From the NCBI GenBank assembly GCA_026196615.1, contig JAPHSW010000049.1, positions 1 through 64,000 on the forward strand: a stretch of 64,000 nucleotides of DNA, read 5' to 3'. Origin of the DNA: Gammaproteobacteria bacterium. GTDB lineage: Bacteria > Pseudomonadota > Gammaproteobacteria > GRL18. This document shows, one piece after another, positions 3,143-15,711 of this stretch (the first letter of the stretch is position 1; each line of letters opens with the position of its first letter). Below the pieces are notes generated by a model. The model worked only from the letters and a program-made list of their open reading frames with translations, had not been told where the DNA came from and searched no databases. A program made the translations under genes and the position numbers.

Positions 3143-3233
3143 TTTATTTTATGTAACCTCAGTTAACCTAATGCGTTATGCAGTAGGGGCAAATTTTTTA
3201 ATTATAAGATTAACAACCATAAGGAAATTTACA

Positions 3234-3851
3234 ATGAAATTACAATTATCAGGCTTAATACTCGCAGCTGCAGCGTTTTTAGGTACATCATCAACAGCAT
3301 TCGCAGTCCCACAAACAGATGTTCAAGAGTATTCAAACAATACTGCAACAGAATATTTTGTTGATCAAGATTCAAACAAATATAACTCTCCTTATTATCG
3401 TGGTATGAATGATGATTGGGGTTGGACTCATAATGGTATTGCAGGAACTGGCTTTACATCAATCTTACTTGATATTTCAGCATTTGATGTTGATGCTCCA
3501 GGTGAAGACGATATGATTTCAGTTTATACTGGTACTACCTGGTTAGACCTTGGTGATTTAGCAGGTTCTAATAATGCATGGGCTTTCACACAATTTGATC
3601 TATCTGGTTATGCTTGGGCTGAAGCACAGGTTAACGCTGGTCTTCAAGTTAGAATGAACATTGATACTCAAAGAACTGGATGGTTAGTAACTCTTGGTAA
3701 AGCAACTCTAAGTGTTGATGGTGGTAGCCAAAATTGTGTACCTACTCCAGGAGTTCCTTGTGTATCTGTTCCAGAGCCATCAGGTCTTGCTCTATTAGGT
3801 CTTGGTTTAGTAGGTTTTGGTTTTGCTCGTAAGCAAGCTCAAAAAGCTTAA
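3234..3851 (+). CDS. PEP-CTERM sorting domain-containing secreted protein
   Basis: Signal peptide MKLQLSGLILAAAAFLGTSSTAFA and C-terminal VPEPSGLALLGLGLVGFGFARKQAQKA. ATG at 3234 preceded by aagga fits better than the track start at 3171. Confidence 0.93.
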   Translation: MKLQLSGLILAAAAFLGTSSTAFAVPQTDVQEYSNNTATEYFVDQDSNKYNSPYYRGMNDDWGWTHNGIAGTGFTSILLDISAFDVDAPGEDDMISVYTGTTWLDLGDLAGSNNAWAFTQFDLSGYAWAEAQVNAGLQVRMNIDTQRTGWLVTLGKATLSVDGGSQNCVPTPGVPCVSVPEPSGLALLGLGLVGFGFARKQAQKA

Positions 3852-3936: not shown

Positions 3937-4061
3937 GTTTTAAAATAAGGGGGACAAATACAATTCACTTTTCTGAAAATAATAGGTATATTATTTTCAA
4001 TCTTTGTACATAAAAGATGCCAATACACTTACGGCATAAAGCCACGCCCACAGAGTTAAAC

Positions 4062-4709
4062 ATGATCAAAGTAAACTTATTTATTACATCGGAATGCCCT
4101 CATTGCCCAAACGTATTACAAGCACTTTCTGAATTAATAAAAGAAGGAACAATTGCTGAGCTGGAAGTAAGTAACATATCACTCATCCCTGAAAAAGCTC
4201 AAGCTCTAAATATTCGCTCCGTCCCATGGGTAAAAATCGGGCCTTTTGAACTCACAGGTAAACAAACAAAAAGCGAATTACAAACCTGGATCAATCGAGT
4301 TCAATCTGAAACAGGTATGCAAGACTATTTTGATGAACTACTAAAAACCGGTCAACTTGATAAGGTTATTCATCTACTAAAAAAAGACTCTGAACTATTC
4401 AGAAATCTTCCCCTTATGATGCAAAATAAAAAGACATCAATGGGTGCTAAAATAGGTATCGGTGCAATTTTTGAAGAGTTTCAAGGTAGCCAGGAAATTC
4501 ATCAACTCATTCCAATGCTATCCAAACTACTTAAGTCTGATAGTGCTAACCTTAGGAATGATGCTTGCTACTATTTAGGCCTTACTGAAAGCTCTGATGC
4601 CATCACCTCCATTCAATCACTCGCTGATGATGAAACCAAAGAAGTAAGAGAAACGGTTCGTGATGCATTGAGCATTATTATGGCTAAGAAAAAACCTCAT
4701 GAATCATAA
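4062..4709 (+). CDS. Thioredoxin-fold (CPHC) protein with C-terminal HEAT-like repeats
   Basis: FITSECPHCPNVLQALSEL, cis-Pro region RSVPWVKIG, then HEAT-like LRNDACYYLGLTESSDAITSIQSLADDETKEVRETVRDAL. Track start 4017 is also possible. Confidence 0.75.
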   Translation: MIKVNLFITSECPHCPNVLQALSELIKEGTIAELEVSNISLIPEKAQALNIRSVPWVKIGPFELTGKQTKSELQTWINRVQSETGMQDYFDELLKTGQLDKVIHLLKKDSELFRNLPLMMQNKKTSMGAKIGIGAIFEEFQGSQEIHQLIPMLSKLLKSDSANLRNDACYYLGLTESSDAITSIQSLADDETKEVRETVRDALSIIMAKKKPHES

Positions 4710-5410: not shown

Positions 5411-5437
5411 ATGCACAAAATGTCATATTTTGTGCAT
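5411..5437. promoter_or_regulatory. 11-bp perfect inverted repeat next to TTGACA; possible operator or terminator
   Basis: atgcacaaaat-gtcat-attttgtgcat, then ttgaca at 5441-5446. Confidence 0.5.
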
Positions 5438-5499
5438 AAATTGACATAGCCTAACGGAAAAAAATAAATACAATATCACTATATTTTAATAATTATAGA

Positions 5500-5597
5500 A
5501 AAGGCTACCTATATCGAAAGATATAGCACGCAAAGCAACCATTCTAAGGGTTTTACATGTCAGTTAAAAGCCTATGAAAGTGGGAGTTACCTAAGCA
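5500..5597 (+). ncRNA. c-di-GMP-I (GEMM) riboswitch aptamer
   Basis: P2 hairpin ctatatc-GAAA-gatatag (5509-5526), core ACGCAAAGC (5528-5536), 11-nt tetraloop receptor halves tCTAAG (5543-5548) and TATGa (5573-5577), 3' ggGaGTTACC (5582-5591). Confidence 0.82.
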
Positions 5598-5646
5598 ATT
5601 ATGAATAAAATGTGCCCATTCATGGTCAATGCTTTCTATTTTTTTC
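5594..5646 (+). terminator. Probable expression-platform terminator of the riboswitch
   Basis: agca-N3-atgaat...attcat-N6-tgct followed by ttctattttttt. Confidence 0.55.
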
Positions 5647-5703
5647 TCTGTAATTATTGTCTTTAACTGCAATGTTAAATCACTTTTTTTAAGGACAATA
5701 ACA

Positions 5704-6165
5704 ATGTGTCGATTTTTTAAATTTATTTTACCGAATACCCTGTATTCTTCTACTAAAAAGAAGTCTAAACAAAACAATATTCAAGCATTTCCAAAACGAC
5801 AATTTTATCCGCACCTTAATTACATAAATACTGAAACATTTGCGAATGGTTTATACGATGAGGAATACGATGTTATTGATGTACGAGATAAAGAATCATT
5901 TAATAAACTTCGAATTAAATCAGCCACACACATTTTCTTAAAAAATAAGTATTTTGAACAATACGTTCTGGATTTCTCAGAACAAAGTGAAAAACAAATT
6001 GTCATCTATTCCAGTAGCTTGTCCTGTTCTAAAAGTTATCTCGCATCCTCTAAAATAAAAGAAATATTTAAAGAGAATAATATCACCAATAAAATTATAA
6101 CTTATGATTCAGGCATCAGTGATATCGCCTATTCCCATGCAGACTTAGTATTAAAAAAGGTATAA
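5704..6165 (+). CDS. Rhodanese-fold domain protein, probably lacking the catalytic Cys
   Basis: YDVIDVRDKESFNKLRIKSATHI and QIVIYSSSLSCSKSYLASSKIKEI (Ser where IVVYC is expected). ATG 5704 has RBS aaggac; the track start at 5629 lies inside the leader. Confidence 0.72.
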   Translation: MCRFFKFILPNTLYSSTKKKSKQNNIQAFPKRQFYPHLNYINTETFANGLYDEEYDVIDVRDKESFNKLRIKSATHIFLKNKYFEQYVLDFSEQSEKQIVIYSSSLSCSKSYLASSKIKEIFKENNITNKIITYDSGISDIAYSHADLVLKKV

Positions 6166-6185
6166 TAAAATGTCTTTGATAAAGA

Positions 6186-8345
6186 CTATATTATCGCTTT
6201 AATTCCTTGATAGTCTATTTTTCCTGTTCCTAATAAAGGTAAATTTTCAACGATAACAATCTTCTTCGGCACATTAATTTCACCAAGGTTATTCTCTTTA
6301 GCATGAGCAGAAAGCTCTTTTCTTTGAGCAGCCTGTCGTGTTGTCACTAAAATAAGTTGTTCTCCTTTGCTACTGTCAGGAACACTAACAACAGCATGCA
6401 TTTCATCTGGCCAGCATTGACTTGCCATATCTTCAACCATTGAAAGAGAAACCATTTCACCACCAATTTTAGCAAAACGTTTAACACGTCCTTTTATAGT
6501 GATAAAACCATCATTATCAATTTCAACAATATCACCTGTATCATACCAGTCAGCACCATATTCTGAGTGTGCAGGTTCTATAATTCCAGGGTTTTCATTT
6601 CGTAAATAACCTTTCATAATATTTGGACCTTTCACAAAAAGTTGTCCACCTTCGTCAATACCAGGCACTGCTTTCAATTGATATTCAATACCTGGCAGTA
6701 TAGTACCTACAGTTCCTGTTTTATAATCAATGGGTGTATTTATTGAAATAACAGGGCTGGTTTCAGTTGCACCATAACCTTCCAAAATTCTCAAACCAAA
6801 TTTTTCAGCATACAGCTCTCTGGTTTCTTTCTGAACCGCTTCAGCACCAGCACAAACATAGCGAATGCTATAAAAATCATAATTATGAGCAAATTTAGCG
6901 TACCCTTTCAGGAAGGTATTTGTGCCAAATAACATCGTTGCATTAATATCATAAGCTACTTCAGGAATGATTCGATAATGCAAAGGAGAAGGATATAAAA
7001 ACACTTTCATGCCATTTAACACTGACACTAATGTTGCTGTACTTAAACCAAATGAGTGAAATAAAGGTAAGGCATTTAATATGACATCATTTTTATTAAA
7101 ATCAATCTTTGTTCCCAGCTGTATCGTATTGCTCATTATATTTTTATGAGAAAGAACAACACCTTTGGGAACACCTTCTGAGCCAGATGTAAATAACACA
7201 ACGGCTGGATCTTCTGGTGTAACAGACTGCCATTGTTGTGCATAGATCATTTTCGGAAAAAAACTACATACGATTCCATAAGCCTTGTCTTGCCACATAA
7301 CCTCTTTACGAAGATCTTCAAGATAGATAATATTAACCTGTTTTTCTAATAGAGCAATTAAGTCATCCATTTTTGCCAGATTAATAAAACGTCTAGAGGT
7401 ATATACCGTTTTAATTTGTGCCGTTTCAATTGCAGATAAAAGTCCTTTATAACCTGCTGTATAATTCAACATAGCAGGTATTCGAGCAATACTTTGCAAA
7501 GCAAAAAAACTTAATACAGTGGCATTAGTATTTGGCAGCAGCAGGCCCACAATCTCTTTTTCTTGAGTTTGTTTGATCATCAGTCGTGACAAAACACTGC
7601 TTTTTAATAAGAGTTGTCGATAATCAAGAGGTTGACGTTCAACATCTTCAAGAATAACTTGCCCAGCTCCATGTATATCACGAGCATTAAGTAACTTATC
7701 CATTATTGTCACTTGATTATTACTGGTTGAGTAAATCATATCAGTCATAATACTTTTCAGTACTTTACCAGCTTCTATTCGCCTAAGTCTGCCAACAATT
7801 GAATCATCCAGCTCAATTTTTTGAGGTGGTAAGATGGTTAACTTTATCTTAGGAAAAAACTGGCGCCGTTCAATACCCTTTAAACGCGAGAATAGAGAAT
7901 ATTGAGCTCCATCAATCCGAATAGGTAATACCATGGCTCCTGATTTCAATGCAATTAAACCGGGACCATCATATATTTTCATGAGGGTACCAGTAACAGT
8001 AATACGGCCCTCAGGAAAAATAACCGAACGTTTATCCTGTTCCAGATCTTTAATAAATGACTTTATTGAGAGTGGATTTACTGGATCCATTGGAAATAAT
8101 CGAACAATTTGGCCAAAAGGACTGATCCACCATTTTTTTGCCATTTGGGTATTGATAGCAAAAGTCAGTCTGTTTGGGAGAAAAATGGATAATAGCACGG
8201 CATCAAGAAATGAAGTATGATTGGCAATAATCATCACCCGCTCACCCGCTTTATAATAATTTTCCAGACCTTCTACTTCAACTCGAAATAGAAGTTTTAA
8301 AATAAAACGTATAAATTGCTTTGCCAGCTCCATATTTTTCTCCAT
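6186..8345 (-). CDS. aas: Bifunctional acyltransferase / acyl-ACP synthetase (Aas-like)
   Basis: N-terminal NHTSFLDAVLL and FPEGRITVTGTLMKIYDG (PlsC-like); C-terminal VVLFTSGSEGVPKGVVLSHKN and EGYGATETSPVISIN (AMP-binding). Confidence 0.9.
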   Translation of the reverse strand: MEKNMELAKQFIRFILKLLFRVEVEGLENYYKAGERVMIIANHTSFLDAVLLSIFLPNRLTFAINTQMAKKWWISPFGQIVRLFPMDPVNPLSIKSFIKDLEQDKRSVIFPEGRITVTGTLMKIYDGPGLIALKSGAMVLPIRIDGAQYSLFSRLKGIERRQFFPKIKLTILPPQKIELDDSIVGRLRRIEAGKVLKSIMTDMIYSTSNNQVTIMDKLLNARDIHGAGQVILEDVERQPLDYRQLLLKSSVLSRLMIKQTQEKEIVGLLLPNTNATVLSFFALQSIARIPAMLNYTAGYKGLLSAIETAQIKTVYTSRRFINLAKMDDLIALLEKQVNIIYLEDLRKEVMWQDKAYGIVCSFFPKMIYAQQWQSVTPEDPAVVLFTSGSEGVPKGVVLSHKNIMSNTIQLGTKIDFNKNDVILNALPLFHSFGLSTATLVSVLNGMKVFLYPSPLHYRIIPEVAYDINATMLFGTNTFLKGYAKFAHNYDFYSIRYVCAGAEAVQKETRELYAEKFGLRILEGYGATETSPVISINTPIDYKTGTVGTILPGIEYQLKAVPGIDEGGQLFVKGPNIMKGYLRNENPGIIEPAHSEYGADWYDTGDIVEIDNDGFITIKGRVKRFAKIGGEMVSLSMVEDMASQCWPDEMHAVVSVPDSSKGEQLILVTTRQAAQRKELSAHAKENNLGEINVPKKIVIVENLPLLGTGKIDYQGIKAII

Positions 8346-12918: not shown

Positions 12919-15711
12919 ATGCGTATTAATAAAAAACTACCACTTCTATGTGTTCTAGCCGGACTTAACGTCTGTATTTTTTCGACTGCTATCGCTGATA
13001 ACATTCAGGATGCAGAACAAGCTATTGAAAAACAAGACTACTCAACTGCAATTATTCATTTAAAAAATCAACTTAAAAAAACACCTAAAAATGCTCATGC
13101 ACGTTTTTTACTTGGAAAAGCTTACCTTTCTACAGGTAAATTAGAGTCTAGCTTAAAAGAACTTGGCAGAGCCTATGAAATTTCTCCCAAAGATACCCAC
13201 ATTTTATTTGCTTATGTTGATATATTACAAGCTATGGGCAAGCAGGAAAAAGTTCTAAAGTTACTTGATACTCCATTTAAAGACTCAAAGCTGGAAAGCC
13301 AGCGACTCTCATATATCGGCTATGCTCATCTTGCATCAAAGCAAGTAACAAATGCCCGAGAAGCTTTTGAAAAATCAAACAAGCTAGAGCAAAGTGCAAA
13401 AGCATACAATGGCCTCATTGCCCTATCTCTGTTTGAAAAAAACTACACTTTAGCCGAAGAATTACTTAAAAAATCAACTTCGATTGATCCCGAAAATAAT
13501 TCAACCTTACTTCTAAAGGCCAAACTTGCTAATCTTAATAAACAACCTGATCAGGCTTTAGAGATCTACAATGAGTTAATTAAGAATAACCCTGAAAACC
13601 TTTCTTATTATCTTGAACGTGCCACCACATTATCACTTCAAGACAAGAAGGAACTTGCAAAAAAAGATCTAAACGTTATTTTATCTAAATATCCTAACTA
13701 CCCTCAAGCTAATTTTCTTATGTCAGAAATACTATTACGAGAAAAAGCTTATGAAGGGGCTCAAAAATCAGCACAGCTTGTTGTTAATGCTTCGCCACAA
13801 CATATGCCAGCAACTTTTGTTTTAGGTGCAGCCAATTTTGCATTAAAAAATTACAACCAGGCAGAAGAAAATTTAACCATATATCTTGCTTCCAAGCCTG
13901 ATAATTTAAAAGCACAGAATTTACTTGCTAATATTTATCTGGCACAAGATAAAACAGAGCAATCATTACTTATTATTGAAGGTATCCCCAAAAAACAGCT
14001 TGAAAAAGATCCATTACTCTTAACTACTCTTGGTAGCACTTATATTAAAAAGGGTGATACAACAAAAGGTTTACAATTCCTAAATCAAGCTCAAGCTCTG
14101 GAACCTAATAATCAGGATATTAGAAAACGTATCATCGCAATTCAATTTCAATCCGGTGAGTTAAAGGATGCTATCAGTGAGTTAGAAGAGTTAACAAGTA
14201 AACAAACAGGTTCTGATCAATCTCATGCACAAACGAATTATTTACTCATTATTTCTTATATCAAACAAGAACAATTCGACAAGGCTGATGAAAAAATTGA
14301 ACAATTTCTGCTCAAAACACCTGAAGATCTCAAATTACTAAATCTTAAAGCACTCACTTTACAACTCAAAGGTCACCCTGAAAAAGCAATGGCTCAGTAT
14401 CAGGCCATTATAAAACAAGATAAAGACAATATTCCTGCTTATATGGGATTAGCACGTCTTTCAGCTTTAGAGTCAAACTGGTCAGAATCTGAAAATTACT
14501 TTAAACAAGTTTTAAAGATTGAGCCAAATACACTTAAAGCTTATTTAGGACTTGCTGCAATTGCAGACAAGCAAGATAAAGAAAAAGAAACCGAACAGTA
14601 TTTTTTTGATGCCATTGAAAGAAGTAACAAAAATATTCCATCTCAACTCACAGTCGCCGAGTTGTTAAGTCAATGGTATCAATCTAAGCAACAACCAGAA
14701 AAAATATTACATCTTGCTGAAAAGCTGGATAAACAACATTCAAACAACAATAACGTCCGTTCTTTCTTAGCACGGGCTCAACTCCTTAACCAACAAAATG
14801 ATCGAGCAGAACGTACTATAAAAAGTATCCTGACTTATGACACCAAAGATGTCAAACACAGAATCCTTCTGGCTCAAATAATAAGTAATGATAAACAAAG
14901 AATCGATGAAGCCATCACTCTTTTAGATGAAGCACTCCTTATTCAGCCAAAAAATCAAGTTGTCTATACCTTAAAAGCAAGCTTATTAATCAAACAGGGG
15001 AAAAATGAAGAGGCTGCAACTCTGGTAAAAACAATGCAGGAGAAATTTCCAGAATCAACAACAGCTCAACTGTTAAACGCTGATATCTACAGAGCTCAAA
15101 AACAATATAAAAAGGCCCTTGCCATTTATCAAGAAATCTACAAAAAAGAGCCTAATAATAAAATCTTTTCAGCAATAATTAGTGTGTTACTGTCTTTAAA
15201 CCAACAAGATAAAGCAGTTTTATTACTAACAGAAAAAGTAAATGCTTCCTCTTCTCCAGATATAGATGATTTATTTAAACTCGCATCATTACATCATGAA
15301 AAGAAGCAGCTTGATAAAGCAGAAGTATATTACCAGAAAGTTTTAGAGAAAAACCCTAAACATGTACTTAGTTTAAATAACCTGGCCTGGATTAAAATTG
15401 ATAGTAATACCAAGGAAGCGGTTAAACTGGCAAAACAAGCTTATGATCAAGCTCCTAAATCAGCTGCAATTATAGACACTTATGGTTATTTTTTAGTTCG
15501 GGATGAACAATACGAAGCAGGTTTAGACCTCTTAAAACAAGCTGCTGAGGGTATTCCAGAGGATAAGGATATTCAATATCATTTAGCATATGCCTATGCA
15601 AAATTAGGGCAACAGAAAAAAGCACAACAAATTTTGGAAACAATTGTTCATTCTAAACAATCTTTTTCAGAACAAAAGAAGGCACAACAGTTATATCAAG
15701 AAGTTAAATAG
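12919..15711 (+). CDS. prsT: TPR-repeat protein, PrsT-like (PEP-CTERM/XrtA system)
   Basis: Signal peptide plus >20 TPRs, first repeats DAEQAIEKQDYSTAIIHLKNQLKKTPKNAHARFLLGKAYLSTGKLESSLKELGRA; about 930 aa. Confidence 0.8.
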   Translation: MRINKKLPLLCVLAGLNVCIFSTAIADNIQDAEQAIEKQDYSTAIIHLKNQLKKTPKNAHARFLLGKAYLSTGKLESSLKELGRAYEISPKDTHILFAYVDILQAMGKQEKVLKLLDTPFKDSKLESQRLSYIGYAHLASKQVTNAREAFEKSNKLEQSAKAYNGLIALSLFEKNYTLAEELLKKSTSIDPENNSTLLLKAKLANLNKQPDQALEIYNELIKNNPENLSYYLERATTLSLQDKKELAKKDLNVILSKYPNYPQANFLMSEILLREKAYEGAQKSAQLVVNASPQHMPATFVLGAANFALKNYNQAEENLTIYLASKPDNLKAQNLLANIYLAQDKTEQSLLIIEGIPKKQLEKDPLLLTTLGSTYIKKGDTTKGLQFLNQAQALEPNNQDIRKRIIAIQFQSGELKDAISELEELTSKQTGSDQSHAQTNYLLIISYIKQEQFDKADEKIEQFLLKTPEDLKLLNLKALTLQLKGHPEKAMAQYQAIIKQDKDNIPAYMGLARLSALESNWSESENYFKQVLKIEPNTLKAYLGLAAIADKQDKEKETEQYFFDAIERSNKNIPSQLTVAELLSQWYQSKQQPEKILHLAEKLDKQHSNNNNVRSFLARAQLLNQQNDRAERTIKSILTYDTKDVKHRILLAQIISNDKQRIDEAITLLDEALLIQPKNQVVYTLKASLLIKQGKNEEAATLVKTMQEKFPESTTAQLLNADIYRAQKQYKKALAIYQEIYKKEPNNKIFSAIISVLLSLNQQDKAVLLLTEKVNASSSPDIDDLFKLASLHHEKKQLDKAEVYYQKVLEKNPKHVLSLNNLAWIKIDSNTKEAVKLAKQAYDQAPKSAAIIDTYGYFLVRDEQYEAGLDLLKQAAEGIPEDKDIQYHLAYAYAKLGQQKKAQQILETIVHSKQSFSEQKKAQQLYQEVK

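Follow-up and report, generated by a model that had tools for sequence, protein, structure and literature searches.

A c-di-GMP-I riboswitch from a duplicated riboswitch–rhodanese unit, now upstream of a truncated gene, and a candidate strand exchange that would switch translation off

The leader of the gene at position 5704 raises the question of what a c-di-GMP sensor is doing in front of this gene, and how ligand binding could reach it. A first-pass annotation had placed a c-di-GMP-I (GEMM) riboswitch with a terminator-type expression platform at 5500-5646 of the window, that is, of the whole 64,000-nucleotide stretch of DNA analysed here. The reading to which we give slightly better than even chances is that the riboswitch comes from a duplicated unit of riboswitch and secreted tandem rhodanese gene and now stands on a truncated copy of that gene, that it works as an off-switch by strand exchange, and that the rhodanese is probably inactive and the locus decaying.

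A cmscan search of the entire window against Rfam returned a single match, to RF01051 (c-di-GMP-I), covering the full model (1-87); its score, 50.1 bits, clears the 35-bit gathering threshold (E = 8.1e-7). The Infernal scan that had been proposed as a check therefore bears out the class, and the sequence motifs listed in the first-pass annotation are present. Its extent stands in part: 5500-5646 takes in most of the aptamer together with a hairpin and T-run, whereas the Rfam aptamer itself runs from 5493 to 5594. In Vc2 of Vibrio cholerae, the ligand is contacted by G20, A47 and C92 (PMC4744006), and the Rfam alignment, combined with direct reading of the sequence for the tetraloop and its receptor, places the corresponding features as follows.

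5493-5594 (+): c-di-GMP-I (GEMM-I) aptamer, RF01051 (cmscan)
5503 (+): G, equivalent of the Vc2 ligand contact G20
5516-5519 (+): GAAA tetraloop capping P2
5529 and 5580 (+): C5529-G5580, equivalent of the interhelical C44-G83 pair of Vc2
5532 (+): A, equivalent of the Vc2 ligand contact A47
5544-5576 (+): tetraloop receptor in P3, CTAAG at 5544-5548 and TATG at 5573-5576
5590 (+): C, equivalent of the Vc2 ligand contact C92

All ligand-contact positions are retained, and the mark of type I, a GNRA tetraloop on P2 with its receptor in P3, is present. GEMM-Ib (cGAMP) riboswitches carry A where Vc2 has G20. On the basis of the G at 5503, cGAMP specificity was rejected; this base favours c-di-GMP, which is presumably the ligand in the cell. 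As an aptamer, the element is an ordinary and true member of the c-di-GMP-I (GEMM-I) class. The U-A outer pair of the receptor, singled out earlier as a notable change, is in fact the Rfam consensus. One departure is peculiar to this copy: at 5584-5585, against 5537, the base of P3 has a single inserted base and an A-A mismatch, both of which are lacking in the other members of the riboswitch-tandem rhodanese family. Upstream of the riboswitch, the promoter scan listed no convincing sigma-70 promoter; a terminator-like inverted repeat (ATGCACAAAATATGACATTTTGTGCAT, minus strand) with a T-run occupies 5411-5437, in the interval that separates the riboswitch from the methyltransferase gene.

The search for further copies, also suggested earlier, found four RF01051 copies in the source genome, the window copy included. 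Of the remaining three, one stands before the gene for a PAS/GGDEF protein, one before that for a small secreted protein with no Pfam family, and one before a rhodanese gene. The last of these (C155) is a riboswitch with an intact 282-aa rhodanese gene, and the same unit is intact in five relatives (G004, G007, G012, G013 and G015). Throughout C155 and these five genomes, a distance of 55-139 bases separates the riboswitch from the downstream gene for a protein of 282-283 aa. This protein has a hydrophobic N-terminus, then a rhodanese domain that Pfam recognises, and a more divergent second half, which we read as a second rhodanese domain. A second rhodanese subfamily (G000 C220, G011 C34, G015 C11 and G010 C100) has no riboswitch, and none lies near the more distant rhodanese matches (Nitrosomonas and others).

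The gene behind the window riboswitch belongs to the riboswitch-bearing tandem rhodanese family, as a shortened member.

5704-6165 (+): truncated single-domain rhodanese, 153 aa (PF00581, 35.3 bits), paralogue of the 282-aa secreted tandem rhodanese
6166-6201 (+): remnant of the family linker beyond two TAA stops (family profile match 5704-6201, two TAA inside)

The start codon at 5704 that had been assigned earlier is supported, because proteins of the tandem rhodanese family start equally far from a shared FPKR motif. Aligned with domain 1 of the tandem proteins (54-60% identity over 123 sites), the window protein ends before their second half; the match to the family profile (A2) runs past its stop, through two TAA, to 6201, a position already within the final part of the convergent acyltransferase gene. 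It reads SSSLSC where all six intact copies have CNGISC, so that Ser replaces the first Cys (Cys103), which its place after a beta strand suggests is the catalytic one. An active rhodanese is expected to open its active-site loop with the catalytic Cys; the window protein does not, and from its sequence it is probably not an active sulfurtransferase. The hydrophobic signal peptide is missing as well, the maximum 12-residue hydropathy being 0.73 against 2.2-3.2 in the intact copies. In the tree, the window copy falls inside the riboswitch-bearing clade, on the longest end branch of that clade (0.54). A recent duplication from C155 was considered and rejected, since C155 resembles the window copy no more than the copies of other species do (54-60% identity). 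We take the window unit to be an old, shrinking duplicate of a sensor-and-gene unit that relatives keep intact, and the gene to be a truncated, probably decaying paralogue, which the first-pass annotation could not see. Elsewhere in the window lie a PEP-CTERM protein (3171-3851, Pfam PF07589), a thioredoxin-like domain fused to HEAT-like repeats (4017-4709) and a 930-aa repeat protein resembling a TPR protein (12919-15711).

The window unit is flanked by the genes for a methyltransferase and for an acyltransferase/AMP-binding protein, which also adjoin each other in G007 and G004. They are only about 39 bases apart in G004 and about 309 bases apart in G007, where the window leader has a 70% alignment with part of the interval, and no rhodanese gene is found within the interval. 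In this relic, AAAA replaces the GAAA loop and ACGAAAAGC replaces ACGCAAAGC, and Rfam reports no match to it at E up to 1. The switching strands described below are nearly unchanged in the gene-less G007 relic (L115:2275-2450), despite its mutated aptamer core. We read G007 as a case of gene loss with decay of the aptamer, and the window genome as one of partial loss; arrival of the unit in G007 without its gene is the less likely alternative. The resulting decay series, from the intact C155 unit through the truncated window gene to no gene in a relative, is a new observation.

Two other views of the locus bear on these data. In one, the product under the leader's control is a working cytoplasmic protein with a single rhodanese-like domain and a new role, perhaps as a binding protein without sulfurtransferase activity. 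The 153-aa open frame retains the VIDVRD, SCSKSY and TYDSG motifs, and the NG86 dN/dS over 123 sites, a rough ratio because dS is near saturation, is 0.13-0.21 for pairs with the window copy, as against 0.04-0.16 for pairs of intact copies. Since the frame is open for 153 codons and dN/dS is well under 1, the protein may still do something. The same ratio is nonetheless raised, the end branch is the longest of the clade, stop codons stand where the family continues, and the corresponding G007 site has no gene. We consider a new role unlikely, and infer that the locus is decaying rather than gaining one.

The other view takes decay further, so that the riboswitch no longer regulates anything useful and the unit is a pseudogene whose aptamer is merely slower to decay. 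The truncation, the Cys-to-Ser change and the lost signal peptide all point this way, as do the mismatch and insertion at the base of P3 that are unique to the window copy, and the G007 site with neither a gene nor an aptamer that Rfam reports. It sits less well with ligand contacts that are all retained, an aptamer score well above the cut-off, a dN/dS of about 0.2 in the remaining domain, and switching strands that the G007 relic retains almost as they are in the window. We would put it a little below even chances, and it is partly compatible with the explanation that we prefer, as a working switch may stand before a useless gene.

How such a switch might act depends on the platform, which had been described as a terminator.

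5593-5634 (+): hairpin earlier taken as a terminator stem (-8.1 kcal/mol), followed by T7 at 5639-5645

Under that description, the 5' arm of the hairpin would be freed or blocked by P1, and c-di-GMP would control read-through. Hairpin and T7 do both exist in the window leader, and the P1 extension strand shares bases with the 5' arm, which makes the two partly mutually exclusive. An intrinsic terminator would be a stable, G+C-rich hairpin running straight into a T-run. The stem here is weak, being mostly A-U with an 11-nt loop and a gap of four bases before the T-run, and it is absent from the listing of the terminator scan, whose limit of 8 is exceeded by that loop. Its segment (5603-5636) is also more poorly conserved than any other part of the leader, with 17 of 34 sites identical in the relic of the nearest relative, and neither the C155 nor the G015 leader has a T-run at the corresponding place. 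The terminator-type platform therefore fares poorly, and we regard control by intrinsic termination as improbable; hiding of the ribosome-binding site is the more likely function of the window platform.

The elements of this second mechanism are a helix, P0, formed by the 5' flank of the aptamer (5487-5499) with 5647-5659, and an anti-Shine-Dalgarno helix that uses the same downstream strand.

5487-5499 (+): 5' switching strand TAATAATTATAGA, pairing with the P1 3' strand (5591-5601) or the P0 3' strand (5647-5659); platform duplex of -11.9 kcal/mol, p = 0.003 against shuffles
5591-5601 (+): P1 3' strand (CTA) with its extension (AATTA), competing with P0 for the 5' strand (direct reading)
5647-5659 (+): P0 3' strand TCTGTAATTATTG, overlapping the anti-Shine-Dalgarno strand
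5654-5666 (+): anti-Shine-Dalgarno strand TTATTGTCTTTAA, 13 pairs with 5689-5701; -12.9 kcal/mol, p = 0.021 against shuffles
5689-5701 (+): Shine-Dalgarno region TTAAGGACAATAA (sequence reading and folding)

The P0 duplex energy was scored against dinucleotide shuffles of the platform in seven leaders of the riboswitch-tandem rhodanese family, namely the window and the six intact units (C155, G004, G007, G012, G013 and G015); these leaders are few and related, so their p-values are not independent. Five of the seven gave low values (window 0.003, C155 0.004, G015 0.006, G004 0.010 and G012 0.020), whereas P0 was not significant against these shuffles in G007 (weak, p = 0.22) or G013 (absent, p = 0.81). 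Among 11 other c-di-GMP-I leaders of the genus and the taxonomic family that contains it, including two that precede rhodaneses of other types, none beat the shuffles (p = 0.06-0.84). Changes in P0 pairs between the window and its relatives affect only one side of each pair. For the anti-Shine-Dalgarno helix, p was 0.021 for the window, 0.042 for C155 and at least 0.068 for the G015, G004, G013, G012 and G007 leaders.

When P1 was forced in folding, the strand at 5654-5666 paired and the mean unpaired probability of the Shine-Dalgarno region fell in six of the seven leaders, most clearly in G004 (0.43 to 0.06). It went from 0.11 to 0.01 in the window, where either state is predicted to leave the region largely paired, and several leaders showed a small change (C155, 0.20 to 0.19; G007, 0.38 to 0.40). 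Over the whole leader, 141 of 192 sites are identical in the window and in the relic of G007; over the three switching strands (5', P1 3' and P0 3'), the count is 45 of 47, made up of 17/19 at 5487-5505, 13/13 at 5590-5602 and 15/15 at 5644-5658. This agreement, set against the 17 of 34 sites kept in the hairpin, favours a translational exchange that is off with ligand over a terminator.

In the mechanism that we propose, the 5' flank would pair with 5647-5659 in the absence of c-di-GMP, and P0 so formed would compete with the anti-Shine-Dalgarno stem, making the ribosome-binding site more accessible. When c-di-GMP is present, P1 would hold the 5' flank and the downstream strand would be released; this strand could then pair with the Shine-Dalgarno region, and translation would fall. 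Because forced P1 closes the Shine-Dalgarno region in the folding model, c-di-GMP is predicted to lower translation.

The association with rhodaneses extends beyond this family. In relatives, two more genes for secreted rhodaneses, each of a different type, follow c-di-GMP-I riboswitches at L006:294-1401 (G008) and L018:554-1593 (G005). A full-text search of a set of open-access papers for ‘c-di-GMP riboswitch’ together with ‘rhodanese’ found no paper that pairs them; PMC10599522 was set aside as a precedent, as it names GEMM and rhodanese in unconnected passages. Rhodanese as a target of a c-di-GMP-I riboswitch is a new observation. We tentatively suggest, while leaning slightly towards doubt, that this genus, made up of uncultured Gammaproteobacteria, acquired c-di-GMP-I riboswitches in front of secreted rhodanese genes on more than one occasion, the rhodaneses being of three types (the A2 family, L006 and L018). 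On the same view, the 5'-flank exchange of the A2 units would reduce translation when c-di-GMP is high, and extracytoplasmic sulfur chemistry would thereby be tied to c-di-GMP. A family of small secreted proteins (118-163 aa) also follows c-di-GMP-I riboswitches repeatedly in the genus (L002:927-1585, L023:883-1586, L027:1501-2062 and L030:845-1586), and the two members tested gave no Pfam match. With this locus, secreted tandem rhodaneses join the classes of gene found under c-di-GMP-I control, and the decay of a riboswitch-gene unit can be followed step by step.

Compared with known systems, the window riboswitch shares with Vc2 and Vc1 of Vibrio cholerae (RF01051) the fold, the G20, A47 and C92 contacts, the C44-G83 pair and the GAAA tetraloop with its receptor, but differs in the mismatch and inserted base at the base of P3, in having a rhodanese gene as its target, and, relative to the RF01051 consensus, in reading GGCTACC in place of GGCAAAC. 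Set beside the secreted tandem rhodaneses of the same genus, the window protein corresponds to their domain 1, with no signal peptide, Ser for Cys103 and the second half lost. The closest likeness in the platform is to Bc1 of Bacillus thuringiensis, which combines terminators with sequestration of the ribosome-binding site, and by analogy both could also act in the window leader (PMC11218506). In Bc1, a c-di-GMP-I aptamer is followed by terminator-like hairpins and a long platform that can enclose both the ribosome-binding site and the start codon in a stem once the ligand binds (PMC11218506); the window leader would resemble it in this arrangement. Bc1, however, has two typical terminators and controls mcpE (PMC11218506), whereas the window hairpin is weak and the putative exchange uses the 5' flank of the aptamer, through P0.
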